A DNA stretch of 64,000 bases from Glutinoglossum americanum (taxonomy: Eukaryota; Ascomycota; Geoglossomycetes; Geoglossales; Geoglossaceae): assembly GCA_020080175.1 (NCBI GenBank), contig JAGHQL010000159.1, positions 1 to 64,000 of the forward strand. Direction: 5' to 3'. Both the position numbers and the translations under genes were made by a program. The first letter of the stretch is position 1. Each line of letters starts with the position of its first letter. Positions 15,814 to 64,000 of this stretch are shown piece after piece. The notes below the pieces were generated by a model. The model saw nothing but the letters and a program-made list of their open reading frames with translations, was not told the DNA's origin and did not search any database.

Positions 15814-16110
15814 TGTTGGAAACGGCTATTTCCGAGGCAGCCCTGAGCCTGCCTTTAGGGTTCGCTCTGGCCATCGCTTAGCCCTCGAGCAGAGTCTAAC
15901 ACCTCGTATCCATTCACGGATACGAGCTACTAGAATAGGGTCTCTATTCTCGCTTTTCGGCCTGCCATGGTAGCTGGGCTATGGCCGGGCTATGGAGGAT
16001 GGGGCCGTTGGGGCCGAAGCATTCTTCGCTATACAGCTAGCTAGTTCCCCATTGTTTCTGCTCTCTAGCGGTCAATTGAATTACATTCTATATACTAGTT
16101 TTATGTACTT
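15814..16110 (+). mobile_element. diverged LTR fragment (LTR retrotransposon family, superfamily unassigned)
   Basis: Begins TGTTGGAAACGG and shares ordered blocks with the reverse complement of the solo LTR at 60350-60628. These include the start, TTCGCTCTG, TAGCCCT, a CTAGAATAG/TTCTATTCT-type block with CTTTTCGG, CTAGCTAG and an AT-rich end. The 3' limit is approximate. No target duplication is evident, and no internal retrotransposon genes are nearby. It is an old fossil copy, more decayed than the one at 60 kb. Confidence 0.6.
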
Positions 16111-30668: not shown

Positions 30669-31390
30669 TTACGCCAGGCGTCTCCGAGCGGCCAGATCCT
30701 GCATTCTCTTCTTCAACTTAGAACCGGAGTCATACGCCCCTACCGCGGCAACGATCAGCGTCGGTATACCGAGACCTATACCGCACCCCAATGCGATTTT
30801 TTGATCCCTGGTATAACCGCCACTGTGTGACGTGGCATTAGAATCTAAAGCTGTCAGTGCCGGAGCTCAGAAGTCCAGGGGAACCTTTTAGCAATGAGTA
30901 ACTCTCTGATGATACAAAAGTAAACGCAGGACTCACTAGATAGAGATGTAGCAGTGGTACAATTTTTTGGTGTCTGCGGCTTCGGTGGGAATGTGTATGT
31001 GCTGAAATTATTGGTTCTACAGTACGTCGCGAGTATAGAAACAACGTCTGTGTAATCCGCATCGGGCAGTTCCGTGAAATCCATAGCGCATGCCTCTACC
31101 AGGCACTCGCCGATAAACTCCATACTCCTCACAAAACTCTGACCTACACATAGGCAGGCATCGGTGTGACAGCCTAAGCTGTCCATTCCTGTCATACTGG
31201 GGAAGCATGTGGCCGGGTTAGAAGGTTTGCTGCAATCGTCCGATGCGCCCCGGCATCCAGTAAGGCACCACTTTGCGCAATTGCGGAGCGCGGAGTAGTT
31301 CCCCCAGGTATTTGGTGGTTTATAGCCGGATTCTGTAGCAGAAGCTGCTTCGAAAGTTAAGCACAAAAGAGCGACAAAGAGGTAAAACAT
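30669..31390 (-). CDS. cysteine-rich single-pass membrane protein (CFEM-like), member A
   Basis: Predicted 211 residues from two exons (31390-30937, 30850-30669). It has a signal peptide (MFYLFVALLCLTFEAASA), then a 12-cysteine ectodomain. The pattern is C-x3-C-x3-C (NCAKWCLTGC), later GCHTDACLC (C-x4-C-x-C), ECLVEAC (C-x4-C) and ATYC. A Thr/Ser/Asn stalk with several N-glycosylation sites follows. One membrane helix (ALGCGIGLGIPTLIVAAVGA) and a basic cytosolic tail (KLKKRM...ARRRLA) complete it. This resembles fungal CFEM-type extracellular membrane proteins, but I cannot assign a proper CFEM domain. The exon 2 splice is supported because it yields the stalk and helix. It starts 227 bases from its divergent paralogue at 31618 and shares its cysteine spacing. 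Confidence 0.78.
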
Positions 31391-31617: not shown

Positions 31618-32516
31618 ATGACCTCTCCAGCTAGATCTCTATTGCGAATCTCTCAAGTTCTCTGGGTCCTTTTCCGCCTCACCACCCCGCAAACCCTTAC
31701 AGGCGAGCCATGGAGCGCTATCACAGCCTTCGCGGGTTACATCGACCTCCGTCACTGTGCGGCAGATTGCCTCTATCAGGACTGTCATGCCGATCCAGTC
31801 TGTGAGGGAAAGAGAGGGAGTATCGACGCGAAACTCGGCTGCACAGACTTTCGTTGCATTTGCCAACAAGCACAAATTTCCAGTGCCTCTGCTCCGATAT
31901 CTTCCTGCGCCGTAGCAGCTTGTAGTGCAGAGGTCGATGCGATCGCCGCATGGAACGTGTTTACGAGCTATTGCTATGCATATTCTCCACCATTACCGAC
32001 GCCAGTAACACAGGTGCCTCAGCCGACCGTGGAATCAAGTGAGAGACCAGCTCATTTAAAGTTTTTGGAATCCAAATAGTGGACTGGAAGTTGACCGTCC
32101 ATAACAGCAACTAAGACAATACCTCAGGGCTATGGAACAATTGTTACGGGAACCGACGGAATAATCACACCTATACTTGTCACCGGTATGACGACAGTCC
32201 CGATGGGTTATCCCCTCAATATTGGTACCCCCCCAAACTCAAGTCAGTCGAATTCCCTCTTAATCCTTCTCGGGCTGTGCTGCTTTGCGAGGTCCCGATG
32301 CTAACATATCTCGATCTGGCTGCTTTAGGACAAACCCCAGTCTCTCTGAAGATTGGTTTGGGGGTTGGCCTGAGCTTGGGGGTTCTCATCAGTCTCGCAT
32401 TATTAGTCTGCGTCTCTGCTCGCCACTATCTACAGAAGCCAAATCCGGATCCTCCAATGTGGGCGAGGAAGCTAATGGGGGTAGATGACACTGCAGTCGC
32501 CCCACCAAACACATAA
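31618..32516 (+). CDS. cysteine-rich single-pass membrane protein (CFEM-like), member B
   Basis: Predicted 247 residues from three exons (31618-32038, 32108-32242, 32329-32516). An N-terminal hydrophobic segment (SQVLWVLFRLTT) can act as signal. The ectodomain has ten cysteines: HCAADCLYQDC, GCTDFRCIC, SCAVAAC and TSYC, in the same order and nearly the same spacing as in the divergent neighbour (there NCAKWCLTGC, GCHTDACLC, ECLVEAC, ATYC). Next comes a Pro/Thr-rich stalk, then a long membrane helix (LGVGLSLGVLISLALLVCVS) and a short tail. The acceptor of intron 1 is the CAG at 32105-32107, since two other acceptors give stops or lose the stalk. Sequence identity between the two is low apart from the cysteine frame, so the duplication is old. 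Role unknown; cell-surface or wall-facing. Confidence 0.75.
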
Positions 32517-57347: not shown

Positions 57348-57995
57348 CTTGACGGCTTGTGATGTGAAATCGGGGAGCTGATCGATAAGCAGGCGAGTAA
57401 ATGAATCGGATGGTGTGGTACGAAGTATCGAAACTTGAACGCCGGTTTTTGGAGATCGCGGCTCTTAACTTGAAATTTTGGGCTTTTTTTATTTTGTTTT
57501 TTTGTTGTGCTCGGCTGCCAAGCGTATCGAAATCCCGCCCACCCTGACTTCCGCCTCGTTTGGGCGGCAACATGCCAAGAGCATTCACCCCGCCCTCTCG
57601 ATGCCAGATTTTGTCGCCCAGAACGACCACGTCCTTTCGTTTTGGAACGCGCTGTTGGGCCCCAATACTCCCTATGCATTATCAGTATTGAGGCGGGCAG
57701 GGGTGACAGCCCCACTTGGCCTATAAGGTCGAGCAGCCCGTCAACCTTAGAAATGCATCCGGATCGATTACCTTGATAAGTCTTCACAGGCTCCATGGCG
57801 CCAACGGGCTCATAATACGACGGTTTAGCCATTCTCCCGCCGTTATCTTGCTGTTCTCTCATTGCGGGCCGCTTTTTAAGACCCACACCGCATCCCAACC
57901 TCATCAGACTTTATCTCACGCTTACCTTCCTCTATTTCTCTCCGACACCTCGACCCCTCTAAAATATCCCAGTTTTAGAAAACTGTCTTGCTAGG
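57348..57995. other. spacer between TOM5 and the phosphotransferase gene
   Basis: 648 bases; T-rich patch at 57481-57505. The minus frame 57904-57305 overlaps the first exon of TOM5 antisense to nothing known and is rejected as a gene. A C/T-rich leader precedes 57996. Confidence 0.45.
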
Positions 57996-58847
57996 ATGCG
58001 GCCTATCTATTCCAGTCCGTCGGTGCCCAGTCGGATGCCTACCGTACAGGAAATCAGAGCGTCAACTAATGTCGTCTGGGACACCCACAGGCAAATGGTC
58101 GTGGTGGTATCCGATACGTTCCTTGTCAAATACGGGAACTCCGTCAAGGAAATCGAAGGCTGGAACCTACTATTCGTCGAGCAGTATTTGAAAATACCCG
58201 CGCCGCGTCTCTATGCCATGTTCCAAGAATCTGGAGAGATTTTTCTGGTCATGGAATACATCCGCGGAAACCTATTGCGGGATGTATGGCCTACCCTCGA
58301 AGAACGGGACAAGATGACTATTGTCGGAAAACTTAAGGGCATTTTGTACAGTATGCGGTCGCTTCCCTCTCCAGGGTACTTTGGAAACGTCCTTAGAGGG
58401 CCTTTTTCCGATGAATTCTTCTGGTCGATGTCGTCGGATCCTTCGATCTCTGGTCCATTTCGCAGTGGAAACGAACTCTGCTCAGCCCTAGTGGCGAAGT
58501 TAAAGAGCAATAGTGAGGATCCCAGCAAAGTAGAATTCTTCAAGACGCACCTTCCGCAATTATTAGGTAGGCATCCGCCTACTTTCACCCACACCGACCT
58601 CCAGCAGGAAAATATCATCGTTCAAGAGATAGACCATGGCCAATTGAGGGACTACAAAGTTTTCATTATCGATTGGGAAGATGCTGGTTGGTTCCCTAGC
58701 TACTGGGAATATGCCTCCCTCTTTATTGGGTTTCATTGGAGAGATGATTGGTTAGCCAAAGCGGAGCATTTCGTGGACCCATGGCCAGCCGAAGCTGCAA
58801 TGATGAAGTTCGTGTATATGCAATTGGCACTTTATTGTAATTGTTGA
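57996..58847 (+). CDS. phosphotransferase-fold protein (APH/choline-kinase-like family), tail altered
   Basis: A single-exon frame of 283 residues. It has the fold's catalytic stretch HTDLQQEN (Asp201), the metal-binding IIDWEDAGWFPSYWEY (Asp226), and a nucleotide-binding-side stretch FLVMEYIRGNLL. Fungi have many such genes, mostly of unknown substrate. The true start may be the second Met (MPTVQEIRAS, at 58035), which matches the family's usual start better. The end is odd: about 89 bases of the 3' coding part (58735-58823) are repeated at 58847-58935 with changes, and the stop lies at the junction, so the last few residues (ALYCNC) are probably not ancestral. A broken second copy lies at 60.6-61.1 kb. 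Confidence 0.75.
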   Translation: MRPIYSSPSVPSRMPTVQEIRASTNVVWDTHRQMVVVVSDTFLVKYGNSVKEIEGWNLLFVEQYLKIPAPRLYAMFQESGEIFLVMEYIRGNLLRDVWPTLEERDKMTIVGKLKGILYSMRSLPSPGYFGNVLRGPFSDEFFWSMSSDPSISGPFRSGNELCSALVAKLKSNSEDPSKVEFFKTHLPQLLGRHPPTFTHTDLQQENIIVQEIDHGQLRDYKVFIIDWEDAGWFPSYWEYASLFIGFHWRDDWLAKAEHFVDPWPAEAAMMKFVYMQLALYCNC

Positions 58848-58935
58848 TTGGAACGATGATTGGTCAGCCAAAGTGGAGCATTTCACAGACCCATTGCCAG
58901 CTGAAGCCACATCGAAGCCGTTGATATATATGTAC
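58735..58935 (+). repeat. short tandem duplication at the 3' end of the phosphotransferase gene
   Basis: Units 58735-58823 and 58847-58935 align without gaps over ATTGGA..GATGATTGGT.AGCCAAAG.GGAGCATTTC and onwards through CCAGC.GAAGC. The offset is 112 bases. The second unit has several substitutions, so it is not recent. Confidence 0.85.
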
Positions 58936-60344: not shown

Positions 60345-60633
60345 GACTCTGTTGAGAACGGTGGAGGCCATTGGGCATAGAATAGAATTGATTGAATGTT
60401 TAATGGAATGCCTAATTAAGAGCGAGCAAAGTAGGATAGCTAGCTAGCTAGCTATGTAGACGAAAGGAAACGGCCTCATGGCCGAAGCCCGAAAAGCAAG
60501 AATAGAAGTTCTATTCTAGCAGCTCGCTTCCCTTGGCAATGGAAACAAGTTGCCACTCAGCTCCCTAGGGCTAAACCCGCAGAGCGAACCAGGTTCCAGG
60601 CTGCCCCCGGAAACTGCCGTTTCCAACAGACTC
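60345..60633 (-). mobile_element. solo LTR (LTR retrotransposon) with 5-base target duplication
   Basis: The LTR spans 60350-60628 (279 bases). It begins TGTTGAGAACGG and ends CCGTTTCCAACA on the + strand, so its ends are short inverted repeats with TG...CA. Both sides carry GACTC (60345-60349 and 60629-60633), a clean target duplication. The orientation is set by similarity to the fragment at 15814. There are no internal genes, so it is a recombined solo LTR. It contains a CTAGCTAGCTAGCTA repeat. It looks whole as an LTR. Superfamily cannot be told from the LTR alone. Confidence 0.85.
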
Positions 60634-61141
60634 GAGTTGTATTGGCCACCCCAGCCAAGGATCCACTGGTTCAAGCTGGAGAACCATTTCCCGATCCCAA
60701 TGAATTACCCCGATCGCCGCCGGCAAACCCTTCGATCTCCGGCCCATTTCGCGGTGGAAACTATTAGAGGCTGTGCACGAATAGGGGTACAATGCATGTG
60801 GGCCAACGAATTGAATTGCTCGCAACCCTGGAACGCTCGCTACGTAACACGAAGCTATATAAGTAACGGGCTGCCCCGCAGCCCCTTTTCTGCCAACCCA
60901 TGGCAACTCCGGCCAGCCCTGCCGATATTAACCGCACGTAGCGGCTGAGGTGGCGCCGCCACTCCGCTGCTGAGGAACGCTCCTCGGCTCGTCAGGGGTG
61001 CCACGAGGCGGTGCCTGAGCGCCTCGCAACGGAAACGAATTCCGCTTAGCCGTAGTGGCGAAGATGAAGGACCATGGTGAGGAGGATCACAGCAGGATAG
61101 GATTCTTCGAGACGGATCTTCCGCGAGTGTTGGGTTGGTAT
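60634..61141 (+). pseudogene. broken second copy of the phosphotransferase gene, split by an insertion
   Basis: 60729-60761 matches the intact gene around 58439-58471 (CCTTCGATCTC.GG.CCATTTCGC.GTGGAAAC). 61037-61141 matches the directly following part (58472-58572: TAGTGGCGAAG, GAGGAT, ATTCTTC.AGACG, CTTCCGC). The two parts are separated by the insertion at 60762-61030. Upstream similarity before 60700 is faint. The copy is not translatable as one frame and is only a middle fragment of the gene. Confidence 0.8.
60756..61036. mobile_element. 269-base insertion with 6-base target duplication, class uncertain
   Basis: The insertion occupies 60762-61030 inside the broken phosphotransferase copy. 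GGAAAC occurs on both sides (60756-60761, 61031-61036) but only once in the intact gene, so it is a target-site duplication. The element starts TATTAGAGGCTG and ends GCGCCTCGCAAC. It holds a TATA-like GCTATATAAG at about 60853, and its size is right for a solo LTR or short non-autonomous element. Ends show only weak inverted similarity. It is unrelated by eye to the other LTR. Confidence 0.65.
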
Positions 61142-61932
61142 ATCCTATGGTATTAACAGAACGGATGTGCAATGCTCGCTGCAGCACAGCGCTGTGTGGA
61201 ACACGTATTGGCCAGTTTAGATTGACCAATTTGATGCTATAACTTGGTTGATCTGCTTGGCGGACGCAAGTCCCCAGCGAGCGAAGTATGCCCGCCTGGC
61301 AAGGATTCAGATCTGCATTCCTTGCCTCCGTAGCTCTTCTGCCACCCATTACCCTTGACTCCAAAGAGCCGTTACGAGGTTTGACGGGCTACTTAGCGTA
61401 CAGTGATGCTCCATCCCGTTCGTGGGACCTTGTTCTACGGAATGAATGTTGAACACCTGGTTGCCATATCGCCCTGCTGAGGCGATACCCCAGCACTTAC
61501 ACTACGCTTGCAATCTCAATTCCACTCACCATAGGCAGAACGCCAAAGCCCCCTGCTAGGCGCCAGCTCTGTAATATCGACCCTGCAGCGATGAACCGGT
61601 GAGAGTGTGTGGGAGATGGTTGGCTCTTCGCTGCAATCTAACCGCGGCCGGAATTGAGGGCAGAATCTTGAGAATATATCGTGGGCATACGGGACCGAGG
61701 CAAAAGGTGAATGTATTGCTCGTGGGATGGGGGCCGTAAAAGTATAAAAGGTGGCTATTTCTCTCGTTCCGGTGAAGTCAAATTCGACTTTTTGCGAGCC
61801 ATCTGGATAATCTACAACCGGTTTCTCCAGTCTTTCACTGCCTTACCCTTCCTCAGGTTAGAGAACATCTATCACATAACCGCCCTTCCACCTACCTACC
61901 TGCCTACCTACGAAGCCACCAACATCGTCACC
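61142..61932. promoter_or_regulatory. spacer and promoter of the defensin-like gene
   Basis: A consensus TATA box, TATAAAAG, lies at 61743-61750, 183 bases before the ATG. The leader from about 61860 is a CCTACC-rich tract. The rest of the spacer shows no gene. Confidence 0.55.
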
Positions 61933-62232
61933 ATGCAGCCGAAGATTCTCCTTGCCCTCCTCACAGCCCTTATCGCCACCACAACTGCGATTCCGACGCA
62001 GCTCGAGTCCCAAGCTCTCGACCTCGAGAAGCGAGGCTGCCCTTCTGATACAGAGGATAACTGGGAGGCCAGCGGCGGCTGCGATACCGATTGGGCAGGC
62101 CATTGCAACGACAGATGCAATAACGAGGGTTGGAAGCGCGGCTGTTGCCCAGGCACGGTGACTTCGAACATTGTATCCTCACATTGCTGGGTTGGATTTA
62201 ATGTTTGCAAATGCAATTGCAACAAGTCGTAG
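61933..62232 (+). CDS. secreted cysteine-rich peptide precursor, defensin-like (CS-alpha-beta)
   Basis: Intact 99-residue single-exon frame. A signal peptide (MQPKILLALLTALIATTTAI, residues 1-20) is followed by a short pro-region (PTQLESQALDLEKR). The KR at 33-34 is a Kex2-type site. The mature 65 residues start GCPSDTEDNW and carry ten cysteines. The pattern ending in CNDRC (C-x3-C), GCC and VCKC (C-x-C) is the CS-alpha-beta signature of defensins, close in layout to plectasin (C-x3-C ... C ... CKC), with extra cysteines (an additional pair near the N-terminus, GCC and the C-terminal CNC). Fungal defensin-like peptides act as antimicrobials outside the cell. Activity here is inferred. A strong TATA box lies upstream. 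It sits in a repeat-rich, gene-poor end of the window, as effector-like genes often do. Confidence 0.8.
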   Translation: MQPKILLALLTALIATTTAIPTQLESQALDLEKRGCPSDTEDNWEASGGCDTDWAGHCNDRCNNEGWKRGCCPGTVTSNIVSSHCWVGFNVCKCNCNKS

Positions 62233-64000
62233 AGACTATCATGCGTGGTACCGAAGAGGCAAAGGTGGTTGGTAGCTGAAGACGCTCTCTATGGTTGACT
62301 GTGAGCCGATATGTGTCGGTTGCGAACTTGCAACATGCGGCAGGGGTGGTGGTTGGGGACTTCTCCTTCGTTTATAACGTCTGATTAACTTCATAAGAAA
62401 CGGCTTGAAGAACTGCAGACTTATCGTCCCTTCATGAAATTAGTGCTCCTGATACCTATTGTCCCCATTTTTCCCCGTAGCCAAATCAATACAGGAGATG
62501 GCCTTCACTATACCCCACCCCTGAGTCCTGTAGCCTATACAATACCAGGGCGGATACGAGCAATTTCGTCGTTCTTCTCCTCAAGCCCGGCCAGATATTA
62601 ACCCAATGCTCAGTAATATCCAAGGTCGGGAGGTGCCTTGCTCGCAAGGTATCGCTGATACTGTGCCGCGTAACCAACCGGAAAGTCTTTCTCAACTGGG
62701 AGTCCGCCTTGCCTCGTAGAAAGAAAAGCATTCCGACGTCATATGGCACTAATCAGGCTAAATTCTGAGGCACTCTGACCCTGCCGTAGAGGTGGATCGA
62801 CAGGTCTTGAAGATATAGATCTGCGGACGCTACTAGCACAGCCCCCGCCATTTCTAAGAGATTCACATATTAGTTAAAGGACCAGTGAATTATCCCCAGT
62901 GTGCCGCAGAGAATGCTATGCCCCATTGGACGATACCCTTCAATTTAAAGAGAAAGAGGCTAGTCCACGCCATCCAATGCCCGCTAACAAGCTCTAGCAT
63001 ACTAGAGATCGATGTGATCGGTGTTGGGGAAACTTCAACTGCCTGAGCATCAGTCTGCCTTGCCCGGCAGAAAGAAGCATTCTAGCGTCATTCGATGCCG
63101 GTCAGGGAAAAACTGGGGCACTGGAGCCTTTCTATTCGCATGTTCCCCGCTGTAAAACTTGCACTGCCATATGCTAGGTCGAACCGAGGAGAGGCCATCC
63201 GTATCCAACAGCCCTGTTCCCAGCTAGATGGAGTCTGTACTGCTCAGTAGGGCATAACGAATTTCCAAACTAGGCCAGACGTCCGAATGAATGGATTCAC
63301 TCAGCTAGCCAGATGAACCAGAGGTACCGCATCCCCCGCCAAGGGGTTGGCTCGAATTAGTGTGGCTATTTCGTCGCTTAGTCCCCCAGTTAATATCTTC
63401 GAAACAAGTCTGAACAAGGGTTGAGAGTGACCCAAATCACATATTCAGCCTTGCGTCGCTTAGACTGATGACTAGATCGAGGCATTATGCTTTAGTTATG
63501 TGATCGTCGGCTCTGCCTTGAGCCGATTTCTATGCCCGACATAGAGGGGTGTTGCGGCGATAGCACATGCCTGGGAGAGCTGGAGAGAAAAACAGTCCAG
63601 TTGTGCCTGTTCGTAGCGCCAAGGCTCGGAAATGCCCCCTTCTGGCTCAGCTGTCTGCGGTTTGGTCCGTTCACACTATTCGGGTGTTGTAATCTAAATC
63701 TAAGCCTATAGAATATCTCTCCGGTTGTCGATTGCCGTTGTGGACTACCATCAGCTGCCGAGGGTGTCGTTCGTTATATCGTCCATTTGTTACCCCTTTT
63801 CAAGATGAGGTGGGCGTGTATGGTGGTGTTGGGGTGGAGCAGTGCAAAGGACGGGTATATAAGACAAACTCCTACTCTGTCACCGGTCTTGACCCAGTCA
63901 GTCAGTCAGTCAACAGGCCGCTAGCCCCTAACCGACCTGAGCACGTCAACTCCTGATATCCTTTAATTTATTACTCGCTCGCCCCTTACCCTATAACAGC
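62233..64000. other. gene-free right end with diverged repeats
   Basis: No gene supported. Two related segments (about 62699-62785 and 63052-63130) share GCCTTGCC..G.AGAAAG, AGCATTC, GTCAT and GGGGCACT/GAGGCACT blocks in order, a diverged duplication. A TATA-like TATATAAG at 63856-63863, followed by a (CAGT)n run at 63895-63912, may be the promoter of a gene starting beyond the window. Confidence 0.45.

Follow-up and report, generated by a model that had tools for sequence, protein, structure and literature searches.

The window analyzed here, a 64,000-nucleotide stretch of contig JAGHQL010000159.1, contains on its forward strand at positions 61933 to 62232 a real gene for a small cysteine-rich peptide that, judging from its precursor, is almost certainly secreted, with predicted processing by a Kex2-type protease. 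A defensin-like reading of this peptide, i.e., as a member of the cysteine-stabilized alpha-beta (CS-alpha-beta) superfamily, is plausible but unproven, and we consider it probable that the peptide adopts this fold. The proposal as a whole, namely that a filamentous ascomycete here encodes a secreted, defensin-like peptide with a CS-alpha-beta fold that may act as an antibiotic, appears slightly favored on balance. The peptide is probably defensin-related in shape and tightly locked by ten cysteines, an arrangement for which animal macins and the mushroom antibiotic copsin are a better comparison than plectasin.

The open reading frame (ORF) is intronless and encodes 99 amino acids plus a stop codon (ATG context GTCACCATGC); neither GTANGT nor GTGAGT, the strong 5' splice sites of fungi, occurs within it. 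In the precursor, MQPKILLALLTALIATTTAIPTQLESQALDLEKR precedes a domain of 65 residues that contains ten cysteines. The putative signal peptide MQPKILLALLTALIATTTA (61933 to 61989, +), whose cleavage site was placed by eye, corresponds to a hydrophobic N-terminus, and the most hydrophobic 12-mer is ILLALLTALIAT with a mean Kyte-Doolittle value of 2.67. The propeptide IPTQLESQALDLEKR (61990 to 62034, +) ends in a Kex2-type KR site (..LEKR^GC..), and a further KR inside the precursor, at residues 68-69, represents a possible second processing site. By sequence and hydrophobicity, the precursor displays both the signal peptide and the propeptide with a terminal KR that are expected of a secreted Kex2-processed peptide. 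The same signal-propeptide-mature layout is described for the fungal fDEF1 and fDEF2 precursors (PMC4165938) and for the licosin precursor (PMC13199095). Translation of 61933-62232 confirmed a signal-like N-terminus, the KR site and the compact ten-cysteine domain with C-x3-C and C-x-C listed in an initial annotation of this DNA. The clear TATA box mentioned there is present as TATAAA at 61743 to 61748 (+), 190 bp 5' of the ATG, and 61933 is the first ATG downstream of it; since TATAAA occurs 15 times on the forward and 17 times on the reverse strand of the window, the box by itself is weak proof.

To assess the coding character of the ORF, a synonymous codon score trained on 3823 codons from long ORFs of the window was used. 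The score of the ORF was matched by none of 5000 background simulations and was higher than that of all 33 windows of 99 codons cut from the training ORFs. It reached 6.7 over 94 codons, compared with 0.6 over 71 codons in the in-frame upstream stretch 61711-61932, which supports the start at 61933. Among 1528 ORFs of at least 90 amino acids in 60 Markov-simulated windows, one had ten cysteines in 65 residues and two had the C-x3-C..C..C-x-C motif. The real window contains 71 ORFs of at least this length, two with ten cysteines and three with the motif; besides the ORF at 61933-62232, two such ORFs are CFEM-like. The gene sits alone, as had been noted initially: no second copy was found in its own genome (25.8-Mb assembly of 317 contigs). 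The only weak match, on contig C264 (E 0.035, 29% identity), contains one TGA and one TAG and was attributed to chance.

The mature domain of 65 amino acids (62035 to 62229, +) has a computed molecular weight of 7018, a pI of 5.0 and a charge of -3.2 at pH 7. Its cysteines at residues 2, 16, 24, 28, 37, 38, 51, 58, 60, and 62 are spaced C-13-C-7-C-3-C-8-CC-12-C-6-C-1-C-1-C, and the N-terminal region is acidic (DTEDNWE, DTDW); the second cysteine is preceded by 15 residues. Five disulfides are very probable, and the extra disulfides originally expected from the four additional cysteines were likewise rated likely. In the reference array of Tarr, the cysteines are numbered C1-C10 with the core bonds C2-C6, C3-C8, and C4-C9, while a further bond, C1-C7, is a possible hallmark of macins and theromacin has C5-C10 in addition (PMC5116183); a nematode survey with the same array reports ten-cysteine macins (PMC10506718). 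The peptide fills all ten array positions in order, with a GxC motif at C6, and by cysteine order it has the C1 and C7 of macins plus the C5 and C10 of their ten-cysteine members. CNDRC (62104 to 62118, +) is the C-x3-C motif with array C3 and C4, the predicted helix cysteines. GCC (62140 to 62148, +) provides array C5 and C6 and forms a gamma-core-like GxC whose x is itself a cysteine; it lies opposite KRGQC of hydramacin-1. By sequence and spacing, array C7 is an extra cysteine in a long c-loop (62185 to 62187, +), which would be the canonical fourth cysteine in an alternative reading. The C-x-C-x-C motif CKCNC (62206 to 62220, +), with VCKC near the peptide end, contains array C8, C9, and C10 and is the predicted last strand.

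The C..C-x3-C..C..C-x-C frame of the CS-alpha-beta superfamily is present in the peptide, which supports the six-cysteine frame traced in the initial annotation. In 40000 composition shuffles, the loose frame occurred 4246 times, the frame with insect/fungal spacing 1494 times and the latter plus GxC 210 times, while the macin-type ten-position order was seen in 89 and the same order plus GxC in 10; as the patterns were drawn up after the sequence was seen, these figures flatter the fit. A phmmer search of the PDB (177635 sequences) yielded hydramacin-1, a CS-alpha-beta peptide, as the sole match at E<=10; the mature peptide gave an E-value of 0.22 and residues 14-65 one of 0.13. The alignment (GG..T.W...CNDRC...G.KRG.C) places C24, C28, and C38 of the mature peptide opposite the helix and GxC cysteines of hydramacin-1, and its score of 71 was reached by none of 3000 cysteine-fixed shuffles per run (means 32.4 and 29.6). 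Since hydramacin-1 had first been chosen as the best of 177635 sequences, the shuffle result is suggestive but no proof of homology.

Several observations weigh against the CS-alpha-beta fold, the number of shuffles with the loose frame being one of them. A Pfam search of the peptide at E<=10 matched no family; Defensin_2 (PF01097) in particular gave no peptide match at this threshold, and the locus is absent from the Defensin_2 matches listed for its own genome. Two AlphaFold (AF2) models built without an alignment, one of the full mature peptide and one of the core only, both have a low confidence (pLDDT 53) and disagree with each other. The structure prediction proposed initially for the mature peptide is compatible with CS-alpha-beta in the full model, with a helix at residues 20-30 and a strand at 58-62, while the topology of the core-only model is not CS-alpha-beta; bonds between C-x3-C and C-x-C were not seen. 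Foldseek comparisons of these models are no evidence either way because of the low model confidence: macins, copsin and plectasin were absent among the matches listed for the mature model, and the core-only model gave 12 weak matches, three of them CS-alpha-beta peptides, i.e., the scorpion toxin Ts3 (E 4.9), ETD151, a mutant of an insect defensin (E 8.1), and plectasin (E 9.3). Homologues were also missing elsewhere, with none confirmed among 10 pattern stretches of a viral contig collection and 128 of a genome contig collection, and none matched by tblastn in plasmids. All three collections are non-fungal, so that the missing homologues say little, and unnamed fungal homologues of the peptide may well exist. 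A sub-cutoff Defensin_2 match on contig C286 (17.8 bits), a frame of 42 amino acids with CHRHC but without C-x-C, was taken as chance, although it could be a single exon of a gene that is split. Metal binding, a possibility raised by CKCNC and by copper-chaperone matches of the core-only model, was considered unlikely on general grounds, the peptide being secreted and containing tryptophan.

In the proposed mechanism, the precursor would enter the secretory pathway, lose its signal peptide and be cleaved behind the KR site, by a protease of the Kex2 type. In the CS-alpha-beta core, helix cysteines C24 and C28 (mature peptide numbering) would be tied to C58 and C60 of the strand, and C16 would be bonded to C38 or C51. 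The GxC motif favors the former pairing, in which C38 would take the canonical fourth place and the c-loop would be long and macin-like. In the latter pairing, this place would fall to C51, the c-loop would have six residues like that of plectasin, and the extra bonds would be made by the CC pair in a copsin-like manner. The remaining four cysteines would form two bonds that fasten both the N-terminal extension and the C-terminus to the long loop, which in the macin pattern would mean C2-C51 and C37-C62.

As its most likely role, the peptide could be released as a stable antibiotic that acts on competing bacteria, chiefly Gram-positive ones, possibly via lipid II as for other characterized fungal defensins. 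An antimicrobial role is tentative and somewhat less likely than not, and lipid II as the target is unlikely. These gradings reflect that AfusinC is anionic and yet antibacterial (PMC6181372), whereas Zytrisin-1 was inactive at the doses tried, the fold being no guarantee of activity (PMC5234102). AfusinC and other anionic fungal CS-alpha-beta peptides carry a negative charge in a defensin-like frame, as is the case here. Since the peptide is itself anionic (about -3), which weighs against this function, the antimicrobial role is only the leading guess. Fungal CS-alpha-beta peptides characterized by 2015 are described as targeting lipid II (PMC6272156), and plectasin assembles with lipid II in a calcium-sensitive manner, with a functional acidic patch in its n-loop (PMC11222147). 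The peptide, too, has an acidic stretch, at its N-terminus, and shares VCKC with plectasin, but differs in its net charge of -3.2 and in the 15 residues that lead up to its second cysteine.

The peptide gene is flanked by decayed fragments, and the repeat-rich region of the initial annotation applies only loosely: while a diverged dispersed repeat lies to the right, the DNA to the left consists of decayed APH-kinase fragments. Of the genes recognized in the window, the nearest encodes an APH-family kinase (ORF 57963-58841). Pieces of this kinase (51-61% protein identity) were detected at 58849-58932 (E 1.5e-6), 60684-60779 (E 0.002), and 61025-61135 (E 4.2e-6), the latter two covering direct-repeat copies left of the peptide gene. 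The APH-kinase region at 57963-58935 and 60684-61135 (+) comprises the ORF, a tandem duplicate of part of it and two more decayed pieces of the same gene; elsewhere in the genome, two other relatives are 28-29% identical. An inverted match of 165 columns (69.7% identity) connects 60477-60628 with 15814-15969. The repeat at 62600-63300 has 7 other matches on five other contigs (68-82% identity). Beyond the window, about 1.8 kb downstream of the peptide gene, an ORF of 134 amino acids (L005:144-545 on contig C67, about 64043-64444) has a hydrophobic N-terminus, five cysteines, one of them within this N-terminus, and no Pfam match. The window also contains an Abp2-domain gene, a Nup54/NUP57 gene, RPC82 and CFEM-like proteins. 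The best PDB match of the Nup54/NUP57 gene is NUP57 of entry 5cws, presumably from Chaetomium thermophilum, and the host looks like a filamentous ascomycete. A CFEM identity of the peptide was rejected, as it has no Pfam match and the matches to CFEM are those of two other ORFs. These cysteine-rich, divergently placed ORFs at 30857-31390 (-), with a hydrophobic N-terminus, and 31618-32076 (+) have sub-cutoff CFEM matches (17.5 and 19.1 bits vs. 22) and are possibly a divergent CFEM pair.

A defensin-like fold in a secreted signaling, channel-modulating or interaction peptide instead of an antibiotic is a credible, if somewhat doubtful, alternative that overlaps with the odds given to the fold in our proposal. 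It would agree with the net charge of the peptide, with the reports that more than 70% of the Zymoseptoria fungal defensin-like proteins (fDLPs) are neutral or negative and that Zytrisin-1 is without activity (PMC5234102), with licosin, which kills bacteria and also blocks a potassium channel (PMC13199095), and with the suggestion that a CS-alpha-beta protein of Aspergillus nidulans has an endogenous signaling role (PMC6272156), but less well with the antibacterial activity of the anionic AfusinC and the functional acidic patch of plectasin. Rather unlikely is a different fold, i.e., a small effector or structural cysteine-rich peptide whose ten cysteines yield C-x3-C and C-x-C by coincidence. 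The frequency of the loose frame in shuffles, the core-only topology and the lack of a Pfam match are what this explanation predicts, whereas the rarity of the stricter frame and of the ten-position order once GxC is included, the in-register similarity to hydramacin-1 and the three CS-alpha-beta peptides among the weak core-only matches are at odds with it. A spurious ORF in decayed repeat DNA is highly improbable: although the flanks are gene and repeat fragments and homologue or transcript evidence is lacking, codon usage, the ordered pre-pro-mature layout and the position of the first ATG after the TATA box all contradict it, and the gene's own DNA, unlike the repeats, is unmatched elsewhere in the genome.

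It is also improbable that the peptide is a true fungal macin, by descent or horizontal transfer, i.e., a ten-cysteine, five-disulfide CS-alpha-beta peptide outside animals with the theromacin bond pattern (C2-C51, C16-C38, C24-C58, C28-C60, and C37-C62) and the hydramacin helix-loop signature. This origin would account for hydramacin-1 as the sole PDB match, for the cysteine-fixed shuffle result and for the filled array with its GxC. With the eight-cysteine hydramacin-1 (2K35) the peptide has CNDRC...G.KRG.C and the C3-x3-C4-x9-C6 spacing in common, and with the ten-cysteine macin theromacin (PDB 2LN8) the N-terminal C1, the long c-loop with C7, and C5 and C10. Unlike in macins, the C1-C2 spacing is 13 and not 6 as in hydramacin and theromacin, C5 adjoins C6, and the array ends in C9-x-C10. 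The Pfam Macin model (PF14865, cut-off 27 bits) did not match the peptide; it found no match in the peptide's own genome either, which is uninformative alone since the same search matched in 0 of 14 control genomes. The similarity to theromacin beyond the cysteines is ordinary (317 of 3000 shuffles), the best alignment being out of register and the theromacin letters incomplete. Macins are reported from animals (PMC5116183, PMC10506718), and neither a macin-type nor a five-disulfide fungal peptide was among the literature matches listed from open-licence PMC papers.

Copsin from Coprinopsis cinerea (PDB 2MN5; sequence letters from PMC4381204) is a fungal, highly disulfide-bonded CS-alpha-beta peptide, the fold predicted here. 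The two peptides share an n-loop of 7, C-x3-C and a nine-residue C4-C6 step, and all ten cysteines have a counterpart by order, with a C7-C8 spacing of 7 in copsin and 6 in the peptide. Copsin differs in its twelve cysteines and six bonds, and beyond the cysteines there is no similarity, 893 of 3000 shuffles being as good and 1282 at softer gaps. A copsin-like bond pattern in the peptide would swap the partners of its two N-terminal cysteines relative to the macin pattern.

The plectasin-type assignment of the initial annotation proved too specific. Plectasin, an fDEF1 fungal defensin, resembles the peptide in its propeptide precursor, C-x3-C, GxC and VCKC near the end, but has six cysteines in 40 amino acids and a short c-loop compared with ten in 65. 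Its spacing is C-10-C-3-C-10-C-6-C-1-C, while that of the peptide is C-7-C-3-C-9-C-19-C-1-C via the GxC cysteine or C-7-C-3-C-22-C-6-C-1-C via C51, and neither reading gives the plectasin-type six-cysteine frame with a short c-loop. Cysteines aside, the two are only marginally similar (152 of 3000 shuffles as good at a gap-open of -11 and 50 of 3000 at -8; 160 of 3000 in a first run).

The fungal families fDEF3-fDEF5 have their own cysteine patterns and are nearly fungus-only (PMC5116183), and these patterns might fit the peptide, too. CS-alpha-beta defensins are given three or four bonds (PMC6181372), a 2026 paper puts the number of disulfides in most fungal defensins at three, four or six (PMC13199095), and knottin or defensin-like proteins were predicted from models in Emergomyces africanus in 2025 (PMC12705615). 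A five-disulfide peptide would be an intermediate among the three-, four-, and six-disulfide fungal defensins, would help to test whether the additional bonds arose once or repeatedly, and would be a candidate for a stable antibiotic scaffold. A fungal macin, if true, would mean that the macin array is older than the animal-fungus split or has moved between kingdoms. With its full ten-position array, the five-disulfide form would connect the plectasin type to copsin and the animal macins.
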